From positions 1 through 49,672 of IMG/VR virus record IMGVR_UViG_3300046507_000307: DNA of 49,672 nt; one strand, 5' to 3'. The notes beneath the pieces are model-generated. The model saw nothing but the letters and a program-made list of their open reading frames with translations. It was not told the DNA's origin and did not search any database. The position numbers and the translations under genes are program-made. Source of the stretch: a virus. This document shows, piece after piece, positions 5,963 to 39,133 of the stretch. Within the stretch, counting starts at the first letter, position 1. Every line of letters begins with the position of its first letter.

Positions 5963-6690
5963 GCTGTTGTCCTTTTGGTCAAGTATAGCGCCCCGAGCCC
6001 GAGGAGTGCAAGGGCCCAGGTCGCGGGCTCGGGGATATCGTGGCGGCCGGCTCCAGCACTGCCAGGGCCTCCGCCGTTGGGGTAGCCGGGCCACGGGGCC
6101 CAGCCTGGCAGCGCGGGGGCGAACAGGCTTACGTTACCGCAGGCCAGGAACTCCCCCACGTGCCACTCGCGGCCATCGGCACCGCGCACCACGTACAACA
6201 CGGCGTACTCCTGCCGGTAGTCGTTGGCAAAGTCGGTGCGGCTGCCGCTGCAGACCCCGTACCGCTCGCCCTTGCTGAATGTCGTGCCCCACACTGGCAG
6301 GTACAGGCGGCCCGAGACCGTGGCCACCCCGTGGGTGTTGCCCATGGCCAGCGGCTGCGCGTCGGTGCCCTGGCGCATGCGGGCTACCGCCTCCACCGCG
6401 GCGTCCTGGGGCAGGCCCATGGAGCGCAGGGCGGCCAGGGTCCGCTCCACCCACTCGCCACCTCGAGGCTGGCCGGGCCGCAGCCAGGGGGATGCGCCGA
6501 ATGCGCCCACCTTGCAGCCGCGGTGCTGGTCCAGCTTGGTCACGCCTAGCACAGGGGCCACGAGCGTGCCCCAATGGTTCAGGCTGGTCTCGGGGGCGGG
6601 GGTGGCCACGGTGTGGGCCAGCGTAGCCAGGGCGGCGCCGATGAGGGCGTACGCGGCGTTGCGCCAGCGCCTGCGGGTGAGGCGGCTCAT
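5959..6690 (-). CDS. Exported protein with PEP-CTERM sorting signal
   Basis: A 243-residue protein with a basic N-terminus and hydrophobic stretch (RRRWRNAAYALIGAALATLAH) that looks like a signal peptide. The C-terminus (about 219-243) is a textbook PEP-CTERM tripartite signal: IPEPATW, a hydrophobic helix (ALALLGLGALYL) and basic residues (TKR). In bacteria this tail directs export, recognition by exosortase (EpsH) and release to the surface, usually with exopolysaccharide genes. The middle (GAFGASPWLRPGQPRGGEWVERT, MRQGTD, GRLYLPVWGTTFSKGERYGVC) is unrecognised. It overlaps both neighbours by ATGA, so it belongs to the phage operon. Confidence 0.8.
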   Translation of the reverse strand: MSRLTRRRWRNAAYALIGAALATLAHTVATPAPETSLNHWGTLVAPVLGVTKLDQHRGCKVGAFGASPWLRPGQPRGGEWVERTLAALRSMGLPQDAAVEAVARMRQGTDAQPLAMGNTHGVATVSGRLYLPVWGTTFSKGERYGVCSGSRTDFANDYRQEYAVLYVVRGADGREWHVGEFLACGNVSLFAPALPGWAPWPGYPNGGGPGSAGAGRHDIPEPATWALALLGLGALYLTKRTTA

Positions 6691-6776
6691 AGGTACACCG
6701 CCAGCAGCACGGTGGCCGCGAGGATAGCCAGCACCGCCGCTGTGCGGGTGCGCCGGGCGTGGTCGTATTCAGCCAT
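6687..6776 (-). CDS. Tiny single-pass membrane protein, 29 aa
   Basis: Read from ATG 6776, it has a charged start (MAEYDHARRTRT) and one membrane helix (AAVLAILAATVLLAVYL) reaching the C-terminus. The stop overlaps the start of the PEP-CTERM gene (ATGA at 6690), and GGGGAG lies upstream. A longer reading from 6905 in the same frame overlaps the next gene and looks non-coding. Its small size is in keeping with a phage inhibitor or envelope peptide, but function cannot be read. Confidence 0.6.
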   Translation of the reverse strand: MAEYDHARRTRTAAVLAILAATVLLAVYL

Positions 6777-7023
6777 GAGGAAACAGCTCCCCGAGGCGTA
6801 CCACGATGGTGGTGTGAATGGCTGCCTGCCGCCCGTAGTGCTCGCTGATGGTGGCGTCAATCTTGCCGTACCGCATGCGGGCGGCAATGCAGCGGTCTCG
6901 CTCAATCTGATGGTGCTCGCGCAGCTCAGAGACCAGGAGGCGCTGCTCTGGGCTCAGCGTGGCGCCGAATTGTTGGCGGCTGGCGTCGGCCAGCTCTGCG
7001 TGTTGCGAGGGGGTGAGGTTCAT
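6769..7023 (-). CDS. Hypothetical helical protein, 84 aa
   Basis: It is rich in charged residues and predicted mostly helical (SQHAELADASRQQFGATLSPEQRLLVSELREHHQIERDRC). It overlaps the start of the tiny membrane gene by 8 bases and starts 9 bases after the gene upstream. No Cys pairs, signal peptide or recognised family. Confidence 0.65.
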   Translation of the reverse strand: MNLTPSQHAELADASRQQFGATLSPEQRLLVSELREHHQIERDRCIAARMRYGKIDATISEHYGRQAAIHTTIVVRLGELFPHG

Positions 7024-7032
7024 GCTGCCGCC

Positions 7033-7251
7033 TTAGTTGATGTAAACGCAGGTGCCGAGGTCTGCATCGGATTCGATGGTGACTTTTTCGCCGTCGGTGG
7101 TAGCCGCGAGGCGCTGGGCGGCTGCTGCGTCGATACCGTCAAACCAGAAAGTAAAAGCACGCTCACCGCGGATCGTGATTTCAACAGGGCGGCCGGCGAC
7201 GGCGGACAATTTGGCTTCGAGGGCTTGTTTTGCTTGGTTGGCTGCGTTCAT
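7033..7251 (-). CDS. Hypothetical protein, 72 aa
   Basis: A small protein with an N-terminal helix (NQAKQALEAKLSAVAGRP), a beta-like middle (VEITIRGERAFTFWFDG) and a C-terminal strand (KVTIESDADLGTCVYIN). I do not recognise it. It starts after a GGGAAA box. The 69-bp gap upstream holds the 17-bp repeat (7285-7301) and one GGTAATACC palindrome, so this gene probably begins a separately controlled transcript. Confidence 0.65.
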   Translation of the reverse strand: MNAANQAKQALEAKLSAVAGRPVEITIRGERAFTFWFDGIDAAAAQRLAATTDGEKVTIESDADLGTCVYIN

Positions 7252-7587: not shown

Positions 7588-8102
7588 AGGTAATCGGGTT
7601 TATTGCCACCCAGGTGGACGGCGGGCGCGGTGGGTTCGTTGGCCAGGGGCGCAGGCACCCAGCCGGGGCTGTGGGTCTCGGGTATCTGCTTGCAGAGCAT
7701 CTCGGTTTTGTAGCGGCCAAACCGGGCCTGCAGGTCCCACATTTTTTCATACGGGGTGCGCATGTCGGTGGCTGGCGGCGGGGCGACTTCAGGTTTAGGA
7801 TAGCCGCAAGGGGGGCGGCCCTCCTGGGCCAGCAGGTAGTCGATGAGCGCATACACTGTATTGTGATGTTGTACAGGCACGTGTATATCCGCCGGTAGCA
7901 GCTCGGCCCGTTTCTGGTCGAAATTTTGGTAATTTGCGCGGCGTTTGTCGGCGGCGTATTTTTTGCCGTAGAACTTGCCGCACTCAACGCAGCCGCCGGT
8001 ACTTACAAAACGCTGCGCCACGTGGCCACGTTGGCATGGCTTGCCGTTATAAAAATGCATAAGGCCCTGGGCGTGGGCGTCAGCTCTCGTAATGACTTGC
8101 AT
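7584..8102 (-). CDS. Zinc-binding protein of HNH-accessory type, 172 aa
   Basis: First gene of the minus-strand accessory operon. Residues about 20-45 read GKPCQRGHVAQRFVSTGGCVECGKFY, the C..GH..R....G.C..C pattern seen in phage HNH endonuclease-like and related zinc proteins, but no catalytic HNH block follows. The rest is low in recognisable motifs. GGAGAG precedes the ATG at a good distance. The intergenic region upstream (8103-8455) presumably carries its promoter. Confidence 0.65.
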   Translation of the reverse strand: MQVITRADAHAQGLMHFYNGKPCQRGHVAQRFVSTGGCVECGKFYGKKYAADKRRANYQNFDQKRAELLPADIHVPVQHHNTVYALIDYLLAQEGRPPCGYPKPEVAPPPATDMRTPYEKMWDLQARFGRYKTEMLCKQIPETHSPGWVPAPLANEPTAPAVHLGGNKPDYL

Positions 8103-8455
8103 ATCTGCTCTCCGTTGACGATAAGATATGTTAGCATAGGTTTTGCTGGGTGGTGGGCAAAAAGACGGCTAAAATTATAAGTTGTTGATTCGTATGGGTT
8201 TTGGGTGGTGGGCGGGTCTACCCGGTAGCCGCAGGTTACCCGTAGAGGGCTACCTTTACAGGGTCGGAACTACCACTATAGATATTTACGTTATCTATAC
8301 AATGTATACCTTATTACATAGATACTATAGTTTTCCTATGGTGGATTTTTAGGAATAAGAGTTAAGTAGGTAAATAGGGTAAAAGATGTGCAAAATCAAT
8401 GACTTAGCGATACCTCAAGCTATTGGGTACGCTTTTAACTTAGAGGTAGATCAAC
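8103..8455. other. AT-rich intergenic region with palindromes, between divergent operons
   Basis: This 353-base stretch has no credible gene and is far richer in A and T than the rest of the genome. It holds an 11-bp direct repeat GGGTGGTGGGC (8148-8158 and 8203-8213), an inverted repeat GGTAGCC/GGCTACC (8224-8230 and 8248-8254), an 8-bp inverted repeat TATAGATA/TATCTATA (8277-8284 and 8292-8299) and the palindrome TATAC-AAT-GTATA (8296-8308). It separates the minus-strand accessory operon from the packaging genes. It may be the late control region and/or a replication origin. Confidence 0.7.
8133..8160 (-). promoter_or_regulatory. Candidate sigma70-like promoter for the accessory operon
   Basis: On the minus strand TTGCCC (8160-8155), a 16-base spacer and TATGCT (8138-8133) lie upstream of the gene starting at 8102. 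Both hexamers match the consensus only four of six, so this is a weak call. Confidence 0.3.
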
Positions 8456-9259
8456 GTGGCCACTAAAACGGACAGTTTGACGCCGAAACAGGCGAAATTT
8501 GTGGAGCTGTATAGCAAGCTGGGGAACGCCACGGAGGCGTACCGGCAGTCGTACAACGTGGCCAACATGAACGAGCAGAGCATTGGGCGCAAGGCGCACG
8601 AGCTGACGCAAAACGGCAAAATAACGGCAATTTTGAACGGCGCCACAAATTTAGCGGTGCAAGCCGTGGCCTTCGACCGCCTGGACGTGATGCGCCACCT
8701 GGTCGAGCTGACCCAGGCCGACCCCAGCAAAATCAGCCACGTCCGCCGCCTCTGCTGCCGCCATTGCCATGGGGTCGAGCACGCGTACCAGTGGCGCGAC
8801 GAGGCCGAGTATCTGGAGACCCTGGCCAAGGCCATGGACGAGCACGCACGGGCGGTACAGCAGGCCGCCAGGCGCAACGAGGAGACCCCCGCCATGAGCC
8901 TGCCGTCCAACGAGGGCGGGTACGGGTGGCGCAAGCCAAACAAACCGCACCCAGGCTGCCCCAGGTGCCACGGTGAGGGGTACGAGGATGTCTACTTTGC
9001 CGACATGTCTGAGCTGACCGGGCCCGAGCGGCGGCTGATTGCCGGTGTCGAGCGTACAAAGGACGGCCTCAAAATCAAGATGCGCGATCAGGACGGGGCA
9101 CTCAACACCATCGCGCAGATTCTCAAGATGCTGACCAACCGCACAGAGCTGAGCGGTCCGGACGGCGGGCCGGTGCCCATGGCTGTGCTTAATGCGGTTA
9201 TGCCGGTGGACCCGGACCAAGCGAGCAGGCTGTATCAGAAAATTATGGAGGGGAAATGA
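8456..9259 (+). CDS. terS: Terminase small subunit
   Basis: A 267-residue protein starting at GTG after AGAGG. Its N-terminus is the Terminase_2-type HTH region (LTPKQAKFVELYSKLGNATEAYRQSY). Two Cys pairs follow, CRHCHG near residue 100 and CPRCHGEG near 167, a zinc-binding middle I have seen in small terminases of related phages. The C-terminus carries LNTIAQILKML and a peptide-like tail. TerS recognises phage DNA and recruits the large subunit, encoded about 1 kb downstream after four small genes. Confidence 0.88.
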   Translation: MATKTDSLTPKQAKFVELYSKLGNATEAYRQSYNVANMNEQSIGRKAHELTQNGKITAILNGATNLAVQAVAFDRLDVMRHLVELTQADPSKISHVRRLCCRHCHGVEHAYQWRDEAEYLETLAKAMDEHARAVQQAARRNEETPAMSLPSNEGGYGWRKPNKPHPGCPRCHGEGYEDVYFADMSELTGPERRLIAGVERTKDGLKIKMRDQDGALNTIAQILKMLTNRTELSGPDGGPVPMAVLNAVMPVDPDQASRLYQKIMEGK

Positions 9260-9302
9260 AAATAAGTTGCGCGCCGATTGAAAAGGGTATTACAATCTAC
9301 CC

Positions 9303-9572
9303 ATGGACACGACAAACTACCTTGATTTCCTTTTCACCAACGACCCGGCCGTTATCGCGGCTAACGTTGCCGAGCTGGCGCGCATTGCCCAGGTCGAGGC
9401 CGACGACAAGGCAGCAAACGCTGCCCGCTTGGCTGAAACGGCTCGCCTCAAGGTCGCCAACCGCTGCCCTAAGTGCATGGGCGCCGGCCGCCTGCCACAG
9501 TTTGCGCACCGCAAGGGTGGCGAGTGCTTCACCTGCGGCGGCTCCGGTGTCTTTGCCGCATACCGCGCATAA
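9303..9572 (+). CDS. Small zinc-finger protein, 89 aa
   Basis: An N-terminal Ala/Glu-rich helix (residues about 15-48) is followed by two CxxCxGxG motifs, CPKCMGAG and CFTCGGSG, the DnaJ-type zinc-finger half-repeat. Such motifs occur in small phage proteins that probably bind nucleic acid. GGGTATTACA, a near match to the dispersed palindrome, lies about 7 bases before the ATG and its AAAAGGG part can act as ribosome binding site. Confidence 0.7.
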   Translation: MDTTNYLDFLFTNDPAVIAANVAELARIAQVEADDKAANAARLAETARLKVANRCPKCMGAGRLPQFAHRKGGECFTCGGSGVFAAYRA

Positions 9573-9584
9573 CCAAGGATTACC

Positions 9585-9809
9585 ATGATCGCCAACGGAA
9601 CCCGCGTTAATTTCCTCTACCGCCAGCACCACCTGCTCGGCGGCGCCCAGGTCTCAGGCTCGGGCGTAGTGCAAGGCTGGACCATGGTCGGCACCGACCG
9701 CGCCTACGTCATCAAGCCGGACCAAGGTGGCACGGTGCACGTTCGCTGCTCTGGTGTCAGCGTGGCCGACGAGGATACGCCCGTGCCTGTTTCCACTAAC
9801 TGGAGGTAA
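9585..9809 (+). CDS. Hypothetical beta-rich protein, 74 aa
   Basis: It begins MIANGTRVNFLYR and alternates short strands (GVVQGWTMVGTDRAYVIKPDQGGTVHVRCSGVSV), suggesting a small SH3-like beta barrel. It has a clear AAGGA ribosome site. Its stop codon lies inside a GGTAATACC palindrome that precedes the next start. Family unknown. Confidence 0.65.
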   Translation: MIANGTRVNFLYRQHHLLGGAQVSGSGVVQGWTMVGTDRAYVIKPDQGGTVHVRCSGVSVADEDTPVPVSTNWR

Positions 9810-9813
9810 TACC
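9805..9813. repeat. Dispersed palindrome GGTAATACC, before a start codon
   Basis: It overlaps the stop of the gene ending at 9809 and sits two bases before the ATG at 9816, where GGAGG plus this sequence doubles as the ribosome site. Confidence 0.75.
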
Positions 9814-9815
9814 CC

Positions 9816-9917
9816 ATGACTCTGAGCCCCCTTGGTGTAATCCTTTTCGTGGCGGCATTCGTGGCCGCCTGGGCTGCATTCGATGAGCTGGTGCTCCAGC
9901 GGGACGAGTTGCCATGA
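9816..9917 (+). CDS. Tiny membrane protein, 33 aa
   Basis: The sequence MTLSPLGVILFVAAFVAAW starts a single hydrophobic segment, followed by an acidic tail (AFDELVLQRDELP). It has a strong GGAGG site and an ATGA overlap with the next gene. It is too short for most gene callers, but the ribosome site and coupling support it. Confidence 0.6.
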   Translation: MTLSPLGVILFVAAFVAAWAAFDELVLQRDELP

Positions 9918-10261
9918 GTGCGCGCAAGATCAGGCGCCGGGCGTACCGGCGGCAGTACTACACGATGACGCAGACCTCGTACAGCGACTTCGGTGTTCAC
10001 AGGTGGCGGGGCGGCCTCCTGCGCCAGTCGGTCGAGCAGGTGGAGCGGTGGCGCCAATCGCCCGAGGGCCAGCGCCTAGCTGCCCTGTGGGCCAGCGCGG
10101 ATATGCACATTCACGACGAGGCCGTTTTTGTAGGGACCGTCACGGGCCAGATTGGAGGCCAGGGCTACAGCCAGAACATGCAGAACGACGAGGACGTGGT
10201 GGCCGCGGAGCACCGCGTGCGGGGATTCATGCACAAATTGAAAATGCGCCCCTTCGACTAG
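9914..10261 (+). CDS. Hypothetical protein, 115 aa
   Basis: A basic N-terminus (SARKIRRRAYRRQYY) is followed by QVERWRQSPEGQRLAALWAS and an acidic helical C-terminal part. ATG overlaps the upstream TGA. It lies between the small and large terminase genes, where small DNA-binding or HNH-type genes often occur, but no HNH motif is present. Function unknown. Confidence 0.62.
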   Translation: MSARKIRRRAYRRQYYTMTQTSYSDFGVHRWRGGLLRQSVEQVERWRQSPEGQRLAALWASADMHIHDEAVFVGTVTGQIGGQGYSQNMQNDEDVVAAEHRVRGFMHKLKMRPFD

Positions 10262-10316
10262 TTGCGCGCTGGTTGGCGGCGGGCTGTAGGCTGTTGCCCT
10301 GGGCGATAATGGGCGC

Positions 10317-11912
10317 ATGCCTGCTATCCGCCCCCCATGGTTTGACTTCCGCAATCCGGATTACCCCCGGGTATTCGCTGAGCGTATCGAACGCCTAAAG
10401 CGCATCAGGGCCGACCCGTCCAGCGTGCCCTACATGCTCCAGTACTACCGCGACAACCCCGCGCAGCTCATCATGGATTGGGGTTGCACGGCGGACCCGC
10501 GCAACGTGGAGCGAGACCTCCCCGCTGTGGTGCCCTTCATGCTGTTTGATCGTCAGATCGAATGGACTGACTGGATCGTGGAAAACTGGCGTGCTGGTGA
10601 TCCTGGCATAACAGAGAAAAGCCGGGACATGGGGGTCTCGTGGCTGGCCATCGCCCTCTCTTGCACCTTGAGTATTACCCGGCACGACATGGTGATCGGG
10701 TTCGGGTCGCGCAAGGAGGAGTACGTGGACAAGATCGGCGCCCCGAAAACGCTATTCCACAAGGCCCGCATGTTTCTCAAGCTGCTGCCGCCCGAGTTCA
10801 GGGCCGGCTACCGCGGCGACAAGGACAGCCCCTACATGCGAATCATGTTTCCCAACACCGGCAGCGTCATTGCTGGCGAGGCGGGGGACAACATCGGCCG
10901 CGGGGACCGTACCGCGATTTACTTTGTCGATGAGTCCGCGCACCTCGAGCGGCCTCAGCTGGTGGATGCGTCGCTGTCGGCCACGACCAATTGCCGCCAG
11001 GACGTATCAAGCGTGGCGGGCATGGGCAATCCCTTTGCAGAGAAACGGCACAGCGGGAAAATCAAGGTGTTCACGTTTCACTGGCGCGACGACCCACGCA
11101 AAGATGAGGCGTGGTATGCCAAGCAGGTGCGCGAGCTGCCGGCGGTGGTGGTGGCGCAGGAAATCGACATTAACTACGCCGCGTCGCTCGAGGGCATCAT
11201 CATTCCGCACGAGTGGGTAAACGCATCCGTCGACGCACACGTCACCCTGGGCGTTGAGCCCTCGGGGATGCGCCGCGGTGCGCTGGACGTGGCCGACGAG
11301 GGTAAGGATAAAAACGCATGGCTCGGCCGCCACGGCATTCTCATAGAGGAGCTGGAGGAGTGGAGCGGCGTAGCGTCCGACCTTTACGCGACGGCCGAGC
11401 GGGCGGTGGGCCTCTGCGCGTTCAATCGGTATTGGGAGCTGCTTTACGACGCGGACGGCATCGGCTCATCGGTGCGCGGTGACGGTGAGCGCATCAATGA
11501 ATCGCGGGTGGCCGAGGGCTTGGCCCGTATCAAAATTGCCCCGTATCGAGGCAGCGGGGAGGTGTTTGAGCCCGATGAGGAGATGGTAAAGGACCGCACC
11601 AATAAAGACTTTTTCCAGAATTTCAAGGCGCAGGCGTGGTGGTCGCTGCGTATTCGCTTTGAAAAGACATTCCGAGCGGTAACCGAGGGGGCCAAGTACC
11701 CGCCCGACGAGCTAATCAGTATTTCCAGCAAACTGGCGCTGAAAAATCAGCTCATGCGCGAGCTGTCACAGGCGACCTACAAAAAGCAAACCAGTGGGAA
11801 AATACTGGTCGATAAGGCGCCGGATGGTACAAAATCGCCCAATTTGGCCGACTCCGCGGTAATCGCGTTTGCGCCTGGCGTCAATCTGAAAATATGGGAA
11901 ACCTTGATATGA
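10317..11912 (+). CDS. terL: Terminase large subunit
   Basis: A 531-residue packaging motor and nuclease. A divergent Walker A is visible near 100-108 (EKSRDMGVS), and Walker B with its catalytic acid near 200-207 ([11 protein letters not shown]). The RNase H-like nuclease domain shows [13 protein letters not shown] near 320 and [12 protein letters not shown] near 376, both acidic metal-binding segments. The length fits the Terminase_6-type family. It is followed by the portal gene through an ATGA overlap. It probably packages by headful cutting or from a defined site, which the sequence alone does not settle. Confidence 0.93.
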
Positions 11913-13408
11913 GCAAACGACGAGTAGCAGCCAATGACCAACTCACCGACCTGACGCCGCCGGTGGTTGGCGTGTCCGCGCCGATGGCGGCCATGGCCAA
12001 AGACGGCTTTTCCAATCTGGTGCTCAAGCTGGGGGACGGGTCGGTCGCCAATCAGGCGGCCACGTACACCTCCAACGGCATCAGCCGCAATTACCAGCTG
12101 CTGGTCGAAATGTACCGCTCCTCGTGGATCGTGGCCAACGCTGTGGACGCCGTGGCCGAGGACATGACCCGGGCCGGCATCGACCTGATGGGCATTGAGC
12201 CCGAGGAAGAGGCCCGCATGCAGCGCGCCCTTACGCGCATGGGCATTTGGCAGGCCAAAACCAGCGGGCTCAAGTGGGGCCGGCTGCTTGGCGGCTCGGC
12301 CGAGGTTCTGATGGTGCGGGGGCAGGCCCTGGCCTCTCCGCTGCTGAATGACCGGGTGAGCAAAGACCAATTTGAGGGCTTGATGGTATTCGACCGCCGC
12401 GAGCTGACGCCCGACCCCAACGCCCGTATCGTCGGCGGCATGGACGCGGGGCTACCCGAGTATTACGACGTTGCCGAGTTGGGCCTGCGCATCCACCACA
12501 GCCGCGTCGTGCGCAACATCGGCCGCGAGCTGCCGCGCAACGAGCTGCGGGCCAATAGCTGGTGGGGAATGAGCATTGTCGAGCCGCTGTACGACCGGCT
12601 GGTCAACTTCGATACGGCCACGGCGGGCTCGGCGGCCCTCATCAACAAGGCGCATTTGCGCATGGTGAGCATTGAGAAACTGCGGGAAATCCTGGCTGGG
12701 GGGGGTATCGCCGAGGAAAACCTCGTGAAAATGTTCGCCTTCATGGCCCAGCTCCAGAGCAATCAAGGCATTACCCTGCTGGACTCGAAGGACCAATACG
12801 AAGCCCACAGCTACACGTTTTCAGGGCTGGAGGGCTTGCTTACGCAGTTCGCCCAGCAGCTCAGCGGCGCAACGGGTATCCCTCTGGTGCGCCTGCTCGG
12901 CCAGGCCCCCGCGGGGCTCAACTCCACGGGCGAGGGCGACATGCGCCAGTACCACGAGAATATCGCCCAGCAGCAGGAGGCCCGCCTGCGCCTGGGGCTC
13001 CAGCGCATTCTCGACCTCCTATACCGCTCGCTGTTCGGCAAGCCGCCGCCGGATGATTTTGATTTTTCGTTCAACCCGCTCAAGCAGCTGGACGCCAAGG
13101 AGAAGGCCGAGACCGGGGCCAAGATGGTGGACGCAGTGGACAAGGCGTACGCGGGGGACCTTATCGACCGCGCTACGGCCCTCAAGGAGCTGCAGTACAT
13201 CGGCACTATCACGGGCCAGTTCGCCAGCGTGACGCCCGAAATGATCGCCAAGGTACAGGCCGAAATCGACGCGGCCAACGAGGCGCCCCCAGGCGAGGGC
13301 GGCGAGCTGGACCCGCTCACCGGGCTGCCGAAACCTCCGCCGCCGGCCCTGCCCGGCGAGGCGCTGGACCCAGAAAAGGAGCCAGCAAATGCCCCGCAAG
13401 CGCAGTAA
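11909..13408 (+). CDS. Portal protein (DUF1073 family)
   Basis: A 499-residue protein with the DUF1073 portal features: [33 protein letters not shown] near the start, then [24 protein letters not shown], and the signature [17 protein letters not shown] near residue 335. It forms the dodecameric ring at the head vertex through which DNA passes. I chose ATG 11909 (ATGA overlap, GGGAAA upstream) over ATG 11894. The C-terminus ends in a Pro/Glu-rich tail. Databases sometimes label this family Acb1-like; nothing here indicates an anti-CBASS enzyme. Confidence 0.92.
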
Positions 13409-14120
13409 GTACCAAGCCCCGCGCAGCACTGAGGAGACCTACGCCCGGGCGCTGCGCCGCGTGGCCCGCGTGGTCGGCAGCATCATAGAACCCCACATTG
13501 AGGGGGCCAACTTTATGAACCTGGGGCAGATGATGCAGGCCCTGCGCAACTACTCCGACGCCCTGGGGCCATGGGCAGCGGCCCGAGCCCAGGAAATGCT
13601 GCGCAGCGTGGCCGCCAGCACAAAGCGGGCGTTTGCTGCGGAGAATCGGCGGTTTACCACGGGTATTCAAGGGCTCATCGCCGAGGAGGCCGTGGGTTTG
13701 CAGCAGCAGGTATTACTGCGCGAACAGGTGGACCTGATTAAATCCCTCCCCACCAAAGCAGGCGAACAGGCCCAGACGCTGGCCACGCAGGCCATTATTG
13801 ACGGCACACGCAGCACCGAGATTGCCGACAAAATAAGGGCACTCGGAGGTATTACCGAGAAACGGGCAATTCTCATTGCGCGGACCGAGGTAGCCAAGGC
13901 AAATAGCACGCTCATGGAGGCCCAGGCCACGGCGGCCGGCTCTGAGGCGTATATCTGGCGCACGGCTGGCGACGAGGACGTGCGCGAGTCACATGCGGAA
14001 ATGGAGGGCCGGGTAGTCCAATGGAATGAGCCGCCCACATTGAGCGACGGCACCACCTGTCATGCCGGCCAAATTTTTAACTGCAGGTGCTTTGCTGAGC
14101 CGATATTTACAAAGCTATAA
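13389..14120 (+). CDS. Head morphogenesis protein (Mu F / SPP1 gp7-like)
   Basis: A 243-residue minor head protein. The C-terminal domain carries the family pattern: ARTEVAKANSTLMEAQA, TAGDEDVRESHAEMEGRVV and HAGQIFNCRCFAEP. In Mu- and SPP1-like phages this protein enters the capsid with the portal. It overlaps the portal gene by 20 bases. A GGTATTACC palindrome is read in frame as Gly-Ile-Thr at 13848. Confidence 0.9.
   Translation: MPRKRSKYQAPRSTEETYARALRRVARVVGSIIEPHIEGANFMNLGQMMQALRNYSDALGPWAAARAQEMLRSVAASTKRAFAAENRRFTTGIQGLIAEEAVGLQQQVLLREQVDLIKSLPTKAGEQAQTLATQAIIDGTRSTEIADKIRALGGITEKRAILIARTEVAKANSTLMEAQATAAGSEAYIWRTAGDEDVRESHAEMEGRVVQWNEPPTLSDGTTCHAGQIFNCRCFAEPIFTKL
13848..13856. repeat. 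Dispersed palindrome GGTATTACC, in coding sequence
   Basis: Read in frame as Gly-Ile-Thr inside the Mu F-like gene. Confidence 0.7.
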
Positions 14121-14131
14121 TTGTCGGTGTT

Positions 14132-14827
14132 ATGCACACTTACTACCTGTACAGAATTCATTTCCCCAACGGAAAAACATATACGGGTATTACCAACAAT
14201 GTGAAAAGGCGGCAGACAGACCACCAAAGGCAAGCGCAGAATCCCGTATTACCTGTGCATAACGCTATCGCAAAATACGGCTGGGCGTCTGTCAACTTCA
14301 AAGTTTTGCTGCGGGGTCCGAGGGATCTAATAGCACGGCTCGAAATTGCGTTTATCGCCGACCGGCCAGGGTACAACCTAAGCCCCGGTGGAGATATCAG
14401 CCCCATGACGCTACCCGCCGTACGTGCGAAAGTGGCGGCAAGCATGGCTCGCAGGTTTGAAGACACGGCGGTACGTGAAGCTAATAGAACGGCGCAACGG
14501 GCTGCACAAAATCGCCCAGAGGTAGCGAGCAAGAAAGCAGAGGCCATGCGCGGAAAGACGCATACCGTTGAGACAAAAGCAAGAATGAGCACAGCGGGCG
14601 CGGGTAAAAAACAAAGCGCCGATCATGTGGCCAAGCGGACGCAGCCCCAAATAGGAGCAAAACGTTCCGCCGAGTCACGGGTGCGAATGAGTGAGGGGCA
14701 GAAGAAAAGACAGCGCACGCCAGAAGAGCTAGAGCGGATGAAAACGCTATCCAAAAACCGCGTGGTGACACCCGAGAGCAAAGAGAAAATGAGGCTCGCC
14801 GCAATAGCCAGGTGGGCTCGCCGCTAA
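14132..14827 (+). CDS. Free-standing GIY-YIG homing endonuclease with NUMOD3 repeats
   Basis: A 231-residue protein. The N-terminal GIY-YIG domain has YLYRIHFPNGKTYTGITNN followed by a conserved RR...H and a Glu-containing ARLEIAFI. The C-terminal half is Lys/Arg-rich with several NUMOD3-like DNA-binding modules (HTVETKARMS, SAESRVRMSEGQKKR, TPESKEKMRLAAIARW). Such selfish genes insert between phage genes and spread by cutting alleles that lack them. It interrupts the head module after the Mu F-like gene, and its base composition is less GC-rich than its neighbours. One GGTATTACC copy lies within it. Confidence 0.88.
   Translation: MHTYYLYRIHFPNGKTYTGITNNVKRRQTDHQRQAQNPVLPVHNAIAKYGWASVNFKVLLRGPRDLIARLEIAFIADRPGYNLSPGGDISPMTLPAVRAKVAASMARRFEDTAVREANRTAQRAAQNRPEVASKKAEAMRGKTHTVETKARMSTAGAGKKQSADHVAKRTQPQIGAKRSAESRVRMSEGQKKRQRTPEELERMKTLSKNRVVTPESKEKMRLAAIARWARR
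14186..14194. repeat. Dispersed palindrome GGTATTACC, in coding sequence
   Basis: Read in frame as Gly-Ile-Thr within the GIY-YIG motif of the homing endonuclease, so it overlaps a catalytically important segment. Confidence 0.7.
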
Positions 14828-14871: not shown

Positions 14872-16188
14872 ATGACTATTCGATACGCCGACCGGGTTTT
14901 CCAAACCAGCGCCACCACCGGGACCGGCGCCTACCTGCTCGGCCCCGTCATGCCCGGCGGTTACCGGGGGTTCGATGACGTGCCCGGCATCGTGGACGGC
15001 GACGAGGTGTACGCCTCCATCGATCAGGAGTACAGCGACGAGTACGAGGTGGGCCTCTACACGTACCGCGACTCGGGGTTTCTGGAGCGCACCACCATCA
15101 TGGCCAGCAGCCGCGACGGTCTGCCCGTGCCCTGGCCCTCGGGCGCGACCCGCCGTATTTCGCTGACGCTGACGGCCTCCCAGATCGACCCGAGCACCCT
15201 GCAGTATGTCGGCGCCTCCGTCAGCAGCGACCGCGTGCTGGCCTTGCGCGGCGGTGTGTTCGTGCTGGTCGACCCGCCCACCGGTGGCGGCGGTGACGTG
15301 GCAGTACCAGGGGCGCCCATCATCGGGACAGCCCAGGCAGGCAACGCAACGGTGAGCATCTATTTCTCGGCCCCCGTCAGTAATGGCGGCTCGGCCATCC
15401 TCGATTACCGCGCCTACCTGAGCGACGGCACCGAGGTGGTGGGCAGCGTCAGCCCGATTGTGTTTACCGGCAAGATTAACGGCCAGCCGTACACCGGGTA
15501 CGTGCGGGCGCGCAACGCCCTGGGCATGGGGCCTGCGTCGGCCACGTCCAACACCGTCACGCCGCAATCCACGGCCACGGTGCCGACGGCACCCACCAAC
15601 GTGTCGGCCACGCCTGCGGATGGTTCGGTGTCGGTCGCGTTCAACGTCCCGGCCAGCGACGGCGGCTCAGCCATCCTCGATTACACCGTGACGCTCAGCA
15701 CGGGGCAGACGGCCACCGGCGGCGTGTCACCCATCAGCGTGGCCGCGCCCAACGGCACCCCCGTGACCGCTACCGTACGGGCGCGCAATGCGGTGGGTTT
15801 CAGCTCACCCTCGGCCGCGTCCAACAGCGTCACCCCGTCGGCCAGCCTGGCGGTGCCAGGGGCGCCCACCAACGTGACGGCCTCCGCTGGCCTGGGCGTG
15901 GTGTCGGTGGCGTTCACGGCCCCGACCGATACCGGCGGCTCGCCCATCATCGACTACACGGTAACGCTCACCACGGGGCAGCAGGCCACCGGGGCCTCGA
16001 GTCCCATCAGCGTGGCGGCCCCCGCGGGCACCCCCGTGCAGGCGTTCGTGCGTGCCCGTAACTCTATCGGCCAGGGCAACCCGTCCGCCGCGTCCAACAC
16101 CGTCACCCCCAGCAGCATCCCCGACAACAGCCTGCTGCTCGACGGGCAATCGCTCCTCGCCGACTCCAATTTTCTCATCCTCGCATAA
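14872..16188 (+). CDS. Virion surface protein with three fibronectin type III-like domains
   Basis: A 438-residue protein. Residues 1-110 match an N-terminal module seen in phage head/tail fibres (YADRVFQTSATTGTGAYLLGP, EYEVGLYTYRDSGFLERTTIMASS). After a short linker come three FN3-like domains at about 144-235, 237-326 and 328-416, each with a GGSAILDY or GGSPIIDY strand and ending VRARNxxGxxxxSAxSNxVTP. The C-terminus is a short SNFLILA tail. FN3 domains on phage particles are thought to bind cell-surface sugars. It is the first of three surface-type genes between the head morphogenesis and protease genes. Confidence 0.8.
   Translation: MTIRYADRVFQTSATTGTGAYLLGPVMPGGYRGFDDVPGIVDGDEVYASIDQEYSDEYEVGLYTYRDSGFLERTTIMASSRDGLPVPWPSGATRRISLTLTASQIDPSTLQYVGASVSSDRVLALRGGVFVLVDPPTGGGGDVAVPGAPIIGTAQAGNATVSIYFSAPVSNGGSAILDYRAYLSDGTEVVGSVSPIVFTGKINGQPYTGYVRARNALGMGPASATSNTVTPQSTATVPTAPTNVSATPADGSVSVAFNVPASDGGSAILDYTVTLSTGQTATGGVSPISVAAPNGTPVTATVRARNAVGFSSPSAASNSVTPSASLAVPGAPTNVTASAGLGVVSVAFTAPTDTGGSPIIDYTVTLTTGQQATGASSPISVAAPAGTPVQAFVRARNSIGQGNPSAASNTVTPSSIPDNSLLLDGQSLLADSNFLILA
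15388..16115 (+). repeat. Tandem FN3-coding repeats (three units, about 275-280 bp each)
   Basis: The DNA of the three FN3 domains is visibly similar, for example GGCGGCTC(G/A)(G/C)CCATC at about 15388, 15661 and 15943. This points to internal duplication and provides sequence for gain or loss of domains by recombination. Confidence 0.7.
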
Positions 16189-16203: not shown

Positions 16204-17682
16204 ATGACCATTCAAGTACAAACGCCTGGCGGCTCTCCCGCAGCAGCGACTACCCAGCAGCTGGCCAACCTGCGCCGCGACCTGGCCGCCCCGCCCAAAG
16301 CCATCAACGGCAATTACACAATTCTGGCCACGGACGACAGCCTGGACTTTACGAGCAATTCGCCCAGCACGGTGACGGTGCCGGCGGGCCTGCCTATCTC
16401 CATGTCGCTGGCCTACACCAACACCGGCAGCGGCTTGGTCACGTTCGACGTGTCGGCCGTCACCTGCCCCAACACCAGCGGCGCCAGCACGGCACCTTCG
16501 GGTACGAGCGGCGCCCTCGTGGGCACCAGCACCGTCAACGTGCTGCGCCTGCTCAATGGCGTGCCGGGCGCTGGCGCCGTGGGCAGCTACAAAGGCGCGG
16601 TGGCCAATCAGGCGGCCATGCTGGCGGTTACCGGTATCGTCGGCGATTGGGTGACGCGCACCGACCAAGGCGGCATCCGGTGGGACCTGACCGCGACGCC
16701 GGCCACCAACTTGGCCAGCTGGACGCCTGCGGCGCCCGTCAGCTCGGGCGGCACCAGCCTACCCGTGGCCACCGCTTTCAGCTCCACTATCAAGCTGGAC
16801 GCGTACCGCATGACGCCGCCCACACAGCTGGCAGCGGCCCTGGCGTTTACTCTGGACAGTACGGGCATCGTGGACGGCGGGCGCTGGGATACCGCCTACA
16901 TCGGCGACGGCTCCCACACTCCCACGGCGGCGCCCTTCAAACGCCGCGGCACGGTCGACCTGGGCACCACCCTGAACCAAAAATACCTCGTGCAATTCCA
17001 GCGGTATTCGGGCGAGGTGTATTACAACGTTCAACTGGCTGAAATCGTCAGCACCGCGCCCACCTACGCGGACGACCTGAGCACCGCGACCGCAGCGCAG
17101 ACCCTGCAGACGTTCAGCGGCTGGACGAAAAACGCTGCGGCTTCGGTTACCGGTGCGGGCAACGCCACTTTCACCAGCAGCAAGCGGCTCACCGGCAGCC
17201 AGTCGGGCACACAGCCGGCCTCTATCGTTTACCAACGTGGCACCGTGGCCACGCCGGGCACGGGCGGGGTGTACGCGGAAGGCAAGATGACGCCAATGGC
17301 CACGCTCACCGGGCTGACGGCTGGCGCCAAGTTGCGGGCCAATGACGCCGCCACGCAGAACCACATCGCCTTTGCCTACGGCCCGGGCGGCTTCTCGATT
17401 ACCAAGCGCATTGGCACCAGCACAAATACAGTGCTCGCAACTGACGCCGGGCTCAAGACAACAAACGTGGAATTCAAATGGCGCCTGGAGGTAGAGCCAA
17501 ACCTCCAGCGGCTGTATATTGACGACGTGCTGCTGCTCACTGGCACCGACCCGCTCACCGACGTGAACCTGGGCACCGAGGTGGGCCTGCGCTGGTCGAA
17601 TAGCGGCGTGCAGTGGACGGACACCACCGGGCCCCAGATTTCCAGCTATGTCAACTTTGGCACCTACCTGCCGCACGCGTAA
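16204..17682 (+). CDS. Putative virion surface/fibre protein, 492 aa
   Basis: It is rich in Thr, Ser, Ala, Gly and Val and predicted mainly beta, as in phage fibres. It begins MTIQVQTPGGSPAAATTQQLANLRRDL and has an early carbohydrate-module-like stretch (GNYTILATDDSLDFTS). The C-terminal 220 residues read like a concanavalin-type sandwich (VEFKWRLEVEPNLQRLYIDDVLLL, VGLRWSNSGVQWTDT). No catalytic motif is seen. It follows the FN3 protein and precedes the flavoprotein-like fibre, and the three probably assemble on the same particle part. Confidence 0.65.
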   Translation: MTIQVQTPGGSPAAATTQQLANLRRDLAAPPKAINGNYTILATDDSLDFTSNSPSTVTVPAGLPISMSLAYTNTGSGLVTFDVSAVTCPNTSGASTAPSGTSGALVGTSTVNVLRLLNGVPGAGAVGSYKGAVANQAAMLAVTGIVGDWVTRTDQGGIRWDLTATPATNLASWTPAAPVSSGGTSLPVATAFSSTIKLDAYRMTPPTQLAAALAFTLDSTGIVDGGRWDTAYIGDGSHTPTAAPFKRRGTVDLGTTLNQKYLVQFQRYSGEVYYNVQLAEIVSTAPTYADDLSTATAAQTLQTFSGWTKNAAASVTGAGNATFTSSKRLTGSQSGTQPASIVYQRGTVATPGTGGVYAEGKMTPMATLTGLTAGAKLRANDAATQNHIAFAYGPGGFSITKRIGTSTNTVLATDAGLKTTNVEFKWRLEVEPNLQRLYIDDVLLLTGTDPLTDVNLGTEVGLRWSNSGVQWTDTTGPQISSYVNFGTYLPHA

Positions 17683-17687
17683 CGGCC

Positions 17688-20165
17688 ATGAACCCAATCA
17701 CCCGTGCCGCACTCCAACGATACGGCGCGGTGGCCGTCCCCCCTAGCTCGGGGGGCCAGCTGCCTGCGTACGTTTTCGAAGCTGAAACAACCGCCTACAT
17801 AGCGGCGCAGACGGCGGCGGGGGCTACCCCCACCAGCCAGCGCCAGAAGTCCCAAAACCGTCTGATGCAGCGCCTCAAAACCGCCGGCATTCTGGCCAAG
17901 CTGCAGGGCCTCTACGTCCTGGCGGCCGACACGCAGGAGCAGGCCCTGGTGAACCTGGCGAACCCCGCGGCCCCCCTCGTGGTCAACGGCACCCCCTCAT
18001 TTACGCAATGGGCGGGTATTACCTTTCCGACAATTGCCGATTTCCTGGGCACGGGCGTGGCCCCGTCGACCTTGAATCAAGACAGCGTTATGGTGGCCTG
18101 CTGGACCAAGCCCACATACAGCTCGTCGGCCACGACCAATAACATGGGGTCGACCGACAGCGGCGGTACGGTGGGCGTGGCGCTTACGGCGTCTTCGGCC
18201 AAGGTGCCCTCGTTCGTGTCCATGAGCACGTCCACGGCCAGCACCACCACGTCGGACCAAGAGGGCATGCAGGCGTTCAACCGTACCGGCTCGGGCGCGA
18301 ATGACCTGTGGCACGACTCCGTTAAAACGGACGCACTGACCCAGGCGTCCACATCGGCCGCGGCAGTAACCGGGGAAATCACAATCGGCAAGGTGAACGG
18401 CCAGACCACCACCTGCAAACAGGCCATTCTGGCGGCAGCGTTCGGCGCCTCGCTGACCGACGCGCAAATGCAGACGCTTTACGCGGCTGTCATGGACTAC
18501 ACCGAAAAGGTCCAATTTGGCGACTTCGACGTTACCCCAGCGGGCGTTGGCCCCACGGTGCTGACGGTGGACCACATCATTTACGGCGTGACCGAGGCGT
18601 CCATGGGCGCGGCCATCCAAATGGGCCGCGACGGCGAATCGTTCGCGGTCATTGGCGGCTGGCGGGATGGCGAGATTTCCATTGGCGGCATGCCTACCAA
18701 CGGCCTGGGCTGGACCGATTGGGACGGCTCATACGCCAGCATGCCGGGCCTGGCGAAAACCTATTTCAGCAAGGCGCGGACCCTGGCCGGGCTGCCGCTC
18801 AACGGGTTCCCCACAGCTTCGCGGTTTCTCACCCGAGCCCTACGTGGCATGTGCGACCCTGCGCGAGCGGGCGGCGTGGCCGTGCCCATTTACTTCTCCA
18901 CCGGCATTGCCAGCATTACCAAGTCGGGCACCATCGGGCACACCGTGGTTACCAACGACGGGCGTACTATCGTTTGCAAGTACGGCGCCGACGGCAGTTA
19001 CGAGGCGGACGCCCAGGTGCTGCTCGCGGATACCTACGTGGGCCGCGAGGCCGCGGGCACGGGCGCGGAGTCGGTTAACGGAAATCAAGGCGTGCGCAAC
19101 TCCCTGCGCGTGAGCCCGTATGTCACGCAGGACGTGCCCGGCTCGGGGCTGTTGCCTTATGTGGAGGTGGACACGACGGCCCAGGGCGCGGCCGACAACC
19201 GGGTGCAATCGCCAAATTACCGGTGCACGCTGACCAATTCAGCAGCCCGGCGGTTTCGCCTGCCGACCACCCCGCCGTCGGATTACACCGCGCAAAAATA
19301 CGTACTGCTCGACCGGATGTACACATCCACACAGCCGGGCTGGACGCAACCCAATGGGCTGGCGGAAATCGTCAAACCGGATTCGCTCGGGGATACCGTT
19401 TTTGACTTCAATAGCCGCGGCTTTTTCTCTATCGACGGCATCGCCTACGGGCTGGGCACGCTGTACGGCGCCGCCCAGAATAACGCCGAGCGTGAGGTGA
19501 TCGTTAAGCGCATCGAAAATCATTACCTCGGGTTTTTCTACCACCTGCAATATGGCTCGACCACGCCTGCTATCGTGAACGGCCCGGCTCGTGCGTCAAT
19601 GCTGAATTACGGTTTTGACACGAGGCATTATCTCGACCCGCTGCCAAACGATCAGCTCCACCGCATGAGTGTCTTCTACCTGCGCGAAATGCGCCGGTGG
19701 GTGGGGGAGTTCAAGCTGGACGCAAACGATTATGTGGCGGTCGACGGCACTGTGCCGCGCAGCACAAAAACGGTAGTCGACACCGACTACCAAATGGACA
19801 AACACAGCTGCCGCTACACGCTCAACACCACCACGACGCCGCACAGCATTACGGCCGAGGGCGGATTGGGTATTACCACCGGCGGCACCGATGGTTTCGT
19901 GCCTATCCCCTATGAGGTCGCGCTGCCCAAACGGGCGCAATGCACAAACTGGTGCTCTATCTGGGGCGTGTCCATGACCTCGCTGGCGATTTCCGCTTTC
20001 CGCATGTCGCCCCACGCCATCAACCTGGGCCAGGCAATGGCCATCGCAATGCGGATTGCCCGCATCAAAAACATTGCGCTGCACGACGTGGATTACGAGG
20101 TGGACTTGCGGCCCGCTATTCTTGCCATTCCAGATCAAACGCCCCTGCTCAAACAGGTCAACTAA
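17688..20165 (+). CDS. Fibre-like protein fused to an FAD-dependent oxidoreductase domain
   Basis: An 825-residue protein; ATG 17688 is chosen because the upstream gene ends at 17682. Residues 1-290 resemble phage receptor-binding N-termini (NRLMQRLKTAGILAKLQGLYVLAADTQEQAL, then a lectin-like beta region). From about 294 the sequence looks like an FAD-dependent oxidoreductase (PF12831-type): Rossmann start VDHIIYGVTEASMGAAIQ, GGMPTNGLGWTDW near 332, LREMRRWVGEF near 660, and C-terminal PYEVALPKR, RMSPHAINLGQAMAIAMRIA and HDVDYEVDLR near 740-805. Its location in the head/fibre block suggests a virion protein. Enzyme activity and substrate are unknown. Confidence 0.72.
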   Translation: MNPITRAALQRYGAVAVPPSSGGQLPAYVFEAETTAYIAAQTAAGATPTSQRQKSQNRLMQRLKTAGILAKLQGLYVLAADTQEQALVNLANPAAPLVVNGTPSFTQWAGITFPTIADFLGTGVAPSTLNQDSVMVACWTKPTYSSSATTNNMGSTDSGGTVGVALTASSAKVPSFVSMSTSTASTTTSDQEGMQAFNRTGSGANDLWHDSVKTDALTQASTSAAAVTGEITIGKVNGQTTTCKQAILAAAFGASLTDAQMQTLYAAVMDYTEKVQFGDFDVTPAGVGPTVLTVDHIIYGVTEASMGAAIQMGRDGESFAVIGGWRDGEISIGGMPTNGLGWTDWDGSYASMPGLAKTYFSKARTLAGLPLNGFPTASRFLTRALRGMCDPARAGGVAVPIYFSTGIASITKSGTIGHTVVTNDGRTIVCKYGADGSYEADAQVLLADTYVGREAAGTGAESVNGNQGVRNSLRVSPYVTQDVPGSGLLPYVEVDTTAQGAADNRVQSPNYRCTLTNSAARRFRLPTTPPSDYTAQKYVLLDRMYTSTQPGWTQPNGLAEIVKPDSLGDTVFDFNSRGFFSIDGIAYGLGTLYGAAQNNAEREVIVKRIENHYLGFFYHLQYGSTTPAIVNGPARASMLNYGFDTRHYLDPLPNDQLHRMSVFYLREMRRWVGEFKLDANDYVAVDGTVPRSTKTVVDTDYQMDKHSCRYTLNTTTTPHSITAEGGLGITTGGTDGFVPIPYEVALPKRAQCTNWCSIWGVSMTSLAISAFRMSPHAINLGQAMAIAMRIARIKNIALHDVDYEVDLRPAILAIPDQTPLLKQVN
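18015..18023. repeat. Dispersed palindrome GGTATTACC, in coding sequence
   Basis: Read in frame as Gly-Ile-Thr in the N-terminal part of the FAD-fusion protein (WAGITFP). Confidence 0.7.
19869..19877. repeat. Dispersed palindrome GGTATTACC, in coding sequence
   Basis: Read in frame as Gly-Ile-Thr in the C-terminal part of the FAD-fusion protein (GLGITTGG). Confidence 0.7.
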
Positions 20166-25376: not shown

Positions 25377-26014
25377 GCACCTTTGGCGACTCCCCCCTGG
25401 CCGACGGCCCGCTGGCCGGTATCGACCCGCATGCACCTCTGCCGACGGGTAATACCAGTGCGACCGGCGGCTACCTCGTGCCGCCGCAGCTGCCCGACAA
25501 CCTGGCCCTACGGCGGTTTTTTCAGGCCCTTATCGCTGGCGTCACGCTGCTGCCGGGCCCGTCTGTGCGCCCGCTGTGGCAGAAAAACGCCCCGCCCCAG
25601 CCCGAGATAGACGTGGACTGGTGCGCATTCGGTATCGAGGACCGCCGCGTTTTGGGCAATATTTTTGTGCGCCAAAATGACAACGACGCGACCGTGAAAT
25701 ATGACCAACGCCTTACGCTGCGGTGCATGTTTTACGGCCCCAATTGCGAGGGCTATGCGGAGCGCCTGCAGGAGGGCCTGCCCATTGGCCAGAACCGCGA
25801 AGCGATGCAAATGGCCGGCATGGGCGTGGCCAGCATTGGCCGTATCGTCCACGTGCCTGAGTTATTCAACGATCAATGGTACGACCGGTGCGACGTTTCA
25901 TTTATGATCGACCGCGAAGTTTCAAAGCTCTATCAGATTTTGTCGTTCGGTTCGGCTATTGGCGTGATAATCACGGAAAATATGCGCGTGCCTTTTGCAG
26001 TCGCCCAGCCCTAA
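25373..26014 (+). CDS. Neck terminator protein, gp12-like (LIC_12616 family)
   Basis: A 213-residue protein starting at TTG 25373, chosen for its overlap with the upstream stop (TTGA) and the GGGAG site 8 bases before. The core reads LALRRFFQALIAGVTLLPGPSVRPLWQ, EIDVDWCAFGI, KYDQRLTLRCMFYGPNCEGYAERL and DRCDVSFMIDREV, the pattern of LIC_12616-like neck proteins. It would cap the tail where it meets the head. The tail sheath gene follows. Confidence 0.8.
   Translation: MSTFGDSPLADGPLAGIDPHAPLPTGNTSATGGYLVPPQLPDNLALRRFFQALIAGVTLLPGPSVRPLWQKNAPPQPEIDVDWCAFGIEDRRVLGNIFVRQNDNDATVKYDQRLTLRCMFYGPNCEGYAERLQEGLPIGQNREAMQMAGMGVASIGRIVHVPELFNDQWYDRCDVSFMIDREVSKLYQILSFGSAIGVIITENMRVPFAVAQP
25448..25456. 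repeat. Dispersed palindrome GGTAATACC, in coding sequence
   Basis: Read in frame as Gly-Asn-Thr near the start of the neck terminator gene. Confidence 0.7.
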
Positions 26015-26024
26015 AGGAAAATCA

Positions 26025-27500
26025 ATGGCTACCCAAACCCTCTCTATCGGCCGCCTCGTCCGCGTGGGCGTCAATATCTCCCCGGTGGCAGCTGCCCGTC
26101 GCGGGTTCGGCGCCCTTCTCGTCATGGGGACGGCCACGGTGCTGGACGCTGGCGAGCGGCTGCGGGCCTATACCTCGCTGGACGCGGTGGCCGCGGACTT
26201 CGGCACGTCGGCATCGGAGTATCTGGCCGCCTCGCTGTACTTCGGGCAGACGCCGCGCCCCAACCTCATGTACGTGGGCCGGTGGATCAATTCGGCGGTG
26301 TCGGGTTTCCTCAAAGGCGGCATCCTCACCGCCGCAGACCAAACGTTGAGCAATTTCACCGGCGTAACAACCGGCTCCATGGTGGTGAGCGTGGACGGTG
26401 CGGTCAAGACTTTGACGGCGCTCAACTTCTCGACCGCCACCAACCTGAACAACGTGGCGACCATCATTACCACGGCTCTGGCCGGCTCGGCTATCTGCAC
26501 CTGGGACGGTACGCGATTCAAGATCACCAGCACCAGCACGGGCGCCGCGTCGACCGTCAGCTACGTGACCAACCACACCGCGGGCGTCAACGTCGGCCCC
26601 CTCATCAAGGGCCTGGCAGCGACCGCCAATGCGCCGGTGGCAGGGCAGGCCGCCGAGACCGCCGTGGCCGCCGTGGCCGCCCTGGCCAACCTCTCGGGCG
26701 CGTGGTACGGCCTCGTGTCCGCCGCCGTGCTCACCGAGGCCGAGGTGCTGGCTGTCGCGGGCCTCATTCAGGGCCTGGACCTCTCCCGCATTTTCGGGGT
26801 GGGCCTCACCAACACCAACGTGCTGGACGCCGCGGTTACCAACGACCTGGGCAGCCAGCTCAAGGCCCTGGGCTACACGCGCACGTTCGCCTTCTACTCG
26901 CCCACGCTGCAGAGCCCTGCCGCCGCCATGGGCCGGGCCTTTTCCGTCAATTTCAGCGGGAACCGGACGACCATCACTCTGATGTACAAGCAGATGCCCG
27001 GCATCGTGCCCGAGGGTCTGACCGAGACCCAGGCGCAGACGCTGAAATTCAAGCGGGTGAACGTGTACGCGGCGTACAACAACGACACGGCGATTTACCA
27101 GTATGGCGTCATGTCGGGTCCTGCCTACTTTGACGAAATCCACGGTCTTGACTGGTTCAAAGACGCGCTGCAAAACGCCCTGTACAACCTGCTGTACGGC
27201 TCGGCCCGCAAGGTGCCGCAGACCGAGGCAGGCATGAACCAGCTCGTAACCGTGGCCGGCGGCGTCTGCAAAGAGGCCATCGACAACGGTCTGGTGGCCC
27301 CAGGCACGTGGAATGCTGACGGCTTCGGCCAGATCACCTACGGCGATTTCCTCAAGGCCGGGTACTACATTTACGCCCCGCCAATCTCGCAGCAGGCCCA
27401 GGCCATCCGCGAGCAGCGCATCGCCCCAACGATGCAAATTGCGCTCAAGCTGGCCGGCGCCATCCACGAGGTGGACGCTGTGGTGGACGTGAACCGCTAA
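26025..27500 (+). CDS. Tail sheath protein (DUF3383)
   Basis: A 491-residue contractile sheath protein. It has RLVRVGVNISPVAAARRGFGALLVMG at the start, YLAASLYFGQTPRPNLMYVGRW, and a C-terminal half with KQMPGIVPEGLTETQAQTLKFKRVNVYAAYNNDTAIYQYG and GLDWFKDALQNALYNLL, all typical of DUF3383. ATG 26025 follows AAAGGAAAA. Sheath plus tube genes establish contractile (myovirus) morphology. Confidence 0.93.
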   Translation: MATQTLSIGRLVRVGVNISPVAAARRGFGALLVMGTATVLDAGERLRAYTSLDAVAADFGTSASEYLAASLYFGQTPRPNLMYVGRWINSAVSGFLKGGILTAADQTLSNFTGVTTGSMVVSVDGAVKTLTALNFSTATNLNNVATIITTALAGSAICTWDGTRFKITSTSTGAASTVSYVTNHTAGVNVGPLIKGLAATANAPVAGQAAETAVAAVAALANLSGAWYGLVSAAVLTEAEVLAVAGLIQGLDLSRIFGVGLTNTNVLDAAVTNDLGSQLKALGYTRTFAFYSPTLQSPAAAMGRAFSVNFSGNRTTITLMYKQMPGIVPEGLTETQAQTLKFKRVNVYAAYNNDTAIYQYGVMSGPAYFDEIHGLDWFKDALQNALYNLLYGSARKVPQTEAGMNQLVTVAGGVCKEAIDNGLVAPGTWNADGFGQITYGDFLKAGYYIYAPPISQQAQAIREQRIAPTMQIALKLAGAIHEVDAVVDVNR

Positions 27501-39122: not shown

Positions 39123-39133
39123 TAGTGTACTAC
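39123..39133 (-). promoter_or_regulatory. GTAGTACACTA element before the methyltransferase gene
   Basis: The minus strand carries GTAGTACACTA, identical to 3452-3462 of the first intergenic repeat, across the polymerase stop and just before the methyltransferase ATG (39117). Confidence 0.35.

Follow-up and report, generated by a model that had tools for sequence, protein, structure and literature searches.

The gene at positions 17688-20165 of the DNA analyzed here (the window, 49,672 nucleotides, one strand, positions 1 to 49,672 of IMG/VR record IMGVR_UViG_3300046507_000307) encodes a lectin-like jelly-roll module fused to an FAD-dependent oxidoreductase-type domain. We consider this protein to be, with reasonable probability, an accessory cargo of the virion surface, in which a short tag would dock the protein, the jelly roll would bind glycan and the flavoprotein would act on a host surface polymer. 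The strongest new evidence comes from natural cargo swapping, which was observed in two series of cultured relatives, the window phage itself having no close relative. The parts of the gene are as follows:

17688..20165, + strand: lectin-FAD oxidoreductase fusion gene, 825 aa (from the open reading frame and homologues)
17688..17759, + strand: N-terminal segment, residues 1-24, candidate virion-attachment tag (suggested by the lineage-specific tags of cultured relatives)
17766..18542, + strand: ConA/LamG-type jelly-roll module, residues 27-285 (PHROG, Foldseek, model)
18561..20123, + strand: PF12831 FAD_oxidored flavoprotein domain, residues 292-812 (Pfam profile, model)

The reading frame is intact, running from the ATG at 17688, 5 nt past the stop codon of the preceding gene, to 20165 with no internal stop, and its start is backed by the nearest homologue, in viral contig L029 (MRPAIKAALQ versus MNPITRAALQ). 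Chance or an assembly artifact as the source of the fusion was ruled out by the intact frame, 14 homologous fusions and purifying selection in relatives.

The only profile matches of the N-terminal half lie over residues 32-274 and are to two PHROG families whose function is unknown (E=1e-13 and 1e-12). In the full-length AlphaFold2 model (pTM 0.83; alignment input of 13 viral sequences), residues 1-24 have low pLDDT, and Foldseek matched the N-terminal half to jelly-roll lectin/LamG-type folds and the C-terminal half to FAD flavoproteins. The N-terminal matches include sialidase/trans-sialidase chains (E=3e-7), domain 4 of arabinanase AbnA (TM 0.60 of target) and viral LamG/ConA proteins, placing the predicted structure within the ConA-like lectin/LamG fold, and the module is a putative carbohydrate binder. 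Matches to clostridial toxin binding domains were disregarded, as they reflect the common jelly-roll fold and nothing more. A beta-helix or tailspike fold, as expected of a tailspike depolymerase, was found neither in the whole-protein model nor among its Foldseek matches.

For the C-terminal half, the PF12831 profile matched residues 296-804 (E=2.2e-27; 96.8 bits, the cut-off being 27; profile positions 2-410 of 416), a score far beyond chance level. A separate model of this domain, built from 56 viral and cellular sequences, reached a pLDDT of 91 and a pTM of 0.92, and a Rossmann beta-alpha-beta unit is seen in the whole-protein model (E296-299/H303-314/E319-322). Foldseek returned MnmG, flavocytochrome c3, urocanate reductase and HI0933 (E 1e-7 to 5e-6, core only); the TM-scores of the FAD domain are low (0.17-0.29 of query) because the alignment is confined to the Rossmann core, close relatives being absent from the PDB. 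Sequence searches of the PDB with the window protein or the first alignment gave no match, and the 56-sequence profile gave weak flavoprotein matches, the best being L-amino acid deaminase (E=7e-4). An earlier note, made from the letters of the window, had proposed a fiber- or lectin-like N-terminal half joined at residues 290/294 to a PF12831-type flavoprotein and had named structure prediction as a check; profile, structure models and the 14 homologous fusions bear out this architecture, the boundary is correct to within a few residues, and the predicted Rossmann/FAD fold is present.

Of the 50,697 phage records searched with tblastn, three contain a full-length homologue, each of them a cultured Rhizobium phage with R. 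etli/phaseoli hosts. These homologues (RHph_N3_19 EVB99_110, RHph_Y55 EVB71_023 and RHph_I72 EVC26_036) have the same two-domain architecture and 32-33% identity to the window protein. All three genes lie in the head/portal region, adjoining the portal gene in N3_19, between portal and head morphogenesis genes in I72, and between head morphogenesis and capsid genes in Y55. Their N-terminal tags differ from that of the window copy and, unlike it, they keep the equivalents of H765 and E774. Scans of IMG/VR with alignments added 11 distinct viral contigs that carry the fusion, the window protein as a single query having returned no relatives, so that the fusion occurs in 15 phage proteins, the closest to the window protein being that of L029 (45% identity). 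The neighbors are tail, tail-tip or lysis genes in L018, L023 and L029 and capsid genes in L028, and every fusion examined always lay among virion or lysis genes; since the position differs (portal/capsid versus tail tip or lysis), no single docking site is established. In both the window and L029 the lectin-FAD gene is paired with a fiber-like gene (37% identity), and no other homology between the two viruses was detected within the region compared, which suggests that the two genes travel together as a cassette. Two genes of L029 have a common N-terminal domain (5045-7126 and 10298-12052), one joined to the window's fiber-like part and the other to a lipase-type domain (phrog_6102), which are likely another tag-and-cargo set in one virus. 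The FAD domain occurs without the jelly-roll module in L030 and the truncated L031; the L030 protein (7893-10013) has a weak golvesin C-terminal domain match and falls outside the main phage clade.

The exchange of cargo is clearest between RHph_N3_19 and RHph_N3_13/I3_11, in which the flanking DNA is 93-98% identical on both sides and the slot gene is common over roughly the initial 26 codons, with tag similarity extending over 36 aa. Past the switch, N3_19 carries the lectin-FAD fusion, whereas in N3_13 and I3_11 a BNR_4 propeller comes first and a copy of the jelly-roll module forms the C-terminus. In Kleczkowskavirus, a slot bounded by a head morphogenesis gene and a head maturation protease, with flanks 80-97% identical, holds the lectin-FAD gene in Y55, a GDSL/SGNH-type esterase in RHEph04 and RHEph06, and a BNR domain plus the module in N17; several other members with the same match pattern probably have the esterase as well. 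The common tag of about 20 aa (MGSLASPLVTQKLGRKL / MGSLGSALTQKLVKKL / MASLASALTKKLARK) is weak by BLAST (E 0.02-0.2) and coincides with the end of flank identity, about 37 nt into the RHEph06 gene. The N-terminal tags are thus lineage specific and about 20-36 aa long in two Rhizobium phage groups. Elsewhere among phages the jelly-roll module itself also has a GDSL esterase or BNR domain as its partner: in Sinorhizobium phages phiM12/phiN3 (SmphiM12_398; Foldseek E=2e-20 to the phiN3 protein), as in contig L008, it is joined to a GDSL esterase rather than a flavoprotein. RHEph06 gp14, which shares genomic slot and tag with Y55, likewise has a GDSL/SGNH-type esterase and not a flavoprotein as cargo, and gave no sequence match to the jelly-roll module. 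These swaps behind tags, together with Burkholderia phages Magia and BgManors32, relatives of the window head cluster in which no large gene separates head protein and protease, lead us to conclude that the locus serves as an accessory slot in which surface cargo is exchanged, and the swapping pattern suggests that the tag docks on the particle.

The corresponding region of the window contains the following genes:

13389..14120, + strand: Mu-F-like head morphogenesis protein, left edge of the variable slot
14872..16188, + strand: fibronectin-III-repeat protein, 438 aa (minor tail protein PHROG), same inserted cassette
16204..17682, + strand: fiber-like protein, 492 aa, paired with the lectin-FAD gene in the window and L029
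20715..21932, + strand: DUF2213 head maturation protease, right edge of the variable slot

Profile matches agree with the location given in the earlier note, between head morphogenesis and protease genes. The phage is contractile-tailed (sheath gene, 25995-27500) and has its own tail fiber (34836-35771) and fiber assembly gene (35775-36194) after the baseplate genes, for which reason the lectin-FAD protein is probably accessory and associated with the head cluster rather than the primary receptor binder. A GIY-YIG/NUMOD3 homing endonuclease gene (14132-14827) lies between the head morphogenesis gene and the fn3/fiber/FAD cassette and may help the cassette to spread.

Scanned with a mixed alignment, the GTDB genomes gave 590 confirmed cellular homologues of the FAD domain, of which 80 were kept; the bacterial genome scan with the phage alignment gave no match, so that at this level of sensitivity bacterial genomes yielded no copy of the lectin-FAD fusion. 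The 15 fusion proteins group together in the FAD-domain tree as a single clade (support 0.967), and next to it stands a sister group of three Rhizobiaceae Tat-type FAD-dependent oxidoreductases (WP_209160096.1 from a plasmid of Rhizobium sp. AB2/73, L032 and L033; joint support 1.0) with the GGWR(D/E) insertion in common with the phage domains and 40.6% identity to N3_19. Unlike the phage copies, these enzymes have no lectin module, and all three begin with RR-x-F-(L/I) Tat-type signals. By simple heuristics rather than a signal-peptide predictor, a signal-like hydrophobic segment precedes the FAD domain in 62 of the 80 cellular homologues, and none is seen ahead of it in the phage copies. Two plasmid-borne cellular homologues adjoin TonB receptor or RagB/SusD genes. 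Given these segments and neighbors, the ancestors most likely act outside the cytoplasm; the flavoprotein half thus appears to descend from exported bacterial enzymes, an ancestry that fits a particle-borne role. The closest plasmid-borne cellular homologue (L013, 6911-8659) is flanked by a VirA-like sensor kinase on one side and virB1 on the other, its plasmid being a conjugative one of Rhizobium.

Whether the domain is still an enzyme depends on residues within three stretches in particular:

18570..18602, + strand: weakened nucleotide-binding loop DHIIYGVTEAS, residues 295-305 (family form YG(G/A)TS(A/G)(G/A))
18684..18719, + strand: retained family motif GGMPTNGLGWTD, residues 333-344
19971..20009, + strand: C-terminal motif SMTSLAISAFRMS, residues 762-774 (family form S(A/S)(S/T)HxAYGSxRME, with His765 and Glu774 replaced by Ser)

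Sixty positions were taken as near-invariant, being the same in 78 or more of the 80 cellular homologues, although the invariance of residues 433-441 and 507-512 is partly built in, since those motifs selected the cellular loci (H765, R772 and E774 are unaffected). The window copy keeps 45 of the 60 (75%), against 24-33% overall identity to cellular sequences in the domain alignment; the other complete phage fusions keep 49-56, the truncated L019 keeps 44, and the Rhizobiaceae Tat-type enzymes keep 60 (L013) or 59 (L033). Retained in the window are G333, G334, G339, D344, D435, Y438, E439, D441, G452, R453 and E454, as well as R666, R670, D704, H706, E724 and R772, while H765 and E774 (both Ser), E377, N576, H609 and some others are lost. 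H765 and E774 are each present in 80/80 cellular homologues, and among the other phage copies His is kept in 14/15 (L029 included) and Glu in 14/14 aligned. The cellular YGGTSAG-type subfamily is marked by this invariant pair (S(A/S)(S/T)HxAYGSxRMEP), of which the window copy has neither, and it is best regarded as a homologue of that subfamily and not as a proven active member.

The dinucleotide-binding residues, which the earlier note had singled out for checking, gave a divided answer. The window loop, YGVTEAS, is degenerate relative to the cellular form, in which YG(G/A)TS(A/G) is followed by G (48) or A (32); its third-position Ser occurs in no cellular homologue, this position being G or A only in cells versus G, A, S, N or T among phages, and the L029 loop, YSLAPGA, has lost the first glycine. 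The textbook GxGxxG...E test was set aside as not decisive, because members of the cellular subfamily do not themselves obey it: the Glu after strand 2, where the window has Gly, is present in only 32 of the 80. The window copy also lies on a long branch of the FAD-domain tree. Comparison of closely related phage homologues in pairs gave a dN/dS of 0.05-0.13 in each half (dS is saturated in one pair). These values come from other phage lineages, the window having no relative close enough, and indicate that decay of the FAD half is not under way there.

We propose that the lectin-FAD protein works as follows: (i) the short N-terminal tag would dock it to the head or close to the junction of head and tail; (ii) the ConA-like module would bind an envelope or exopolysaccharide glycan; (iii) the C-terminal domain, a captured extracytoplasmic flavoprotein, would in the family most likely bind flavin and oxidize a sugar or other small group of a host surface polymer, or could alternatively serve as a second binder; and (iv) adsorption or receptor exposure would be helped. 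Gene context, the common N-terminal tags and cargo swapping suggest that the protein is present in particles, where it is probably displayed to bind or chemically alter host surface sugars. The redox step in the window copy is the least certain part of this mechanism: redox activity is plausible for the family, for which the case for an active flavoenzyme is about evenly balanced, and doubtful for the window copy. The fuller reading, in which a family of tailed phages bears a working particle flavoenzyme that oxidizes host surface glycans ahead of infection and is exchanged for esterases and propellers at a dedicated display locus, is offered tentatively and is the less probable side of the question.

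The main competing explanation is that the fold, at least in the window phage, does no redox chemistry and persists on the particle as a rigid scaffold that may lack flavin or bind glycan, as the earlier note had entertained in suggesting a worn-down fold used for binding. The H765S and E774S changes speak against normal catalysis in the window copy, as does its YGVTEAS loop; this copy may bind without catalyzing since two otherwise invariant residues are lost, and the long branch, the lowest count of near-invariant positions among the complete fusions, the looser third loop position in phages, the L029 loop and counterpart cargoes that could themselves be binders (BNR propeller, lectin module) point the same way. 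For the phage family the suggestion fares poorly, as most copies retain the His and Glu, similar purifying selection acts on both halves in relatives, and even the window protein keeps three-quarters of the near-invariant positions at a far lower overall identity; it thus stays live for the window copy, and as a whole we regard it as unlikely.

An auxiliary metabolic enzyme of the infected cell, placed by chance in the virion cluster and with the lectin domain as a targeting or solubility part, would be in keeping with the annotation of PF12831 proteins mostly as enzymes, and a stand-alone oxidoreductase requires no adjoining pathway genes. This seems very improbable to us, given the virion-cluster or lysis-region position in every phage examined, a fused module otherwise found on phage structural-type proteins, and swaps in which GDSL or BNR cargoes follow the same tag; moreover, the closest cellular relatives carry Tat-type export signals, hence their substrate most likely lies outside the cytoplasm, and the phage copies have no signal-peptide-like segment ahead of the domain. 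We give just as little credence to a role as the main receptor-binding protein (tail fiber or tailspike), to which the lectin module, the modular N-terminal tag, host-range-like swapping and the position beside tail-tip genes in L018 and L023 might point: the window has a conventional tail fiber with its assembly gene after the baseplate genes, the lectin-FAD gene lies in the head cluster, and no beta-helix or tailspike fold was found. The accessory surface cargo is therefore the reading that we prefer.

Virion-associated polysaccharide depolymerases and deacetylases of phages are likewise modular, particle-borne and glycan-active, with exchangeable parts; the window protein, for which display is suggested by the genes, differs from these depolymerases in having no beta-helix. 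A review of virion enzymes covers hydrolases, deacetylases among them, and lyases, and uses none of the words oxidoreductase, oxidase and flavin (PMC5380687); our searches of the open-access literature brought up no account of such a virion flavoprotein, nor, in the papers searched, of a function for the N3_19, Y55 and I72 proteins, whose GenBank labels (hypothetical protein or FAD dependent oxidoreductase) come from the depositors only. The domain call is not new, as the GenBank authors of I72 and Y55 had already annotated an FAD-dependent oxidoreductase; the lectin-FAD fusion, the swapping of cargoes and the proposed display are. A particle-borne flavoprotein, if confirmed, would add redox chemistry to the hydrolases, lyases and deacetylases that breach the carbohydrate barrier, an enzyme class separate from the known hydrolases and lyases. 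The three cultured Rhizobium phages with the invariant residues, together with close relatives that carry an esterase or propeller in the same slot, form a natural comparison set, and the currently unannotated phage module (PHROG 18498/26223) gains a lead as part of a display platform.

Two further features of the window were observed. A perfect 127-bp direct repeat occupies its ends (1-127 and 49546-49672), and the record is for this reason probably a complete, circularly closing phage genome. Positions 1053-3446 encode an NrS-1-polymerase-like/DUF5906 protein, and a weak family A DNA polymerase match lies on the other strand at 39130-41523.
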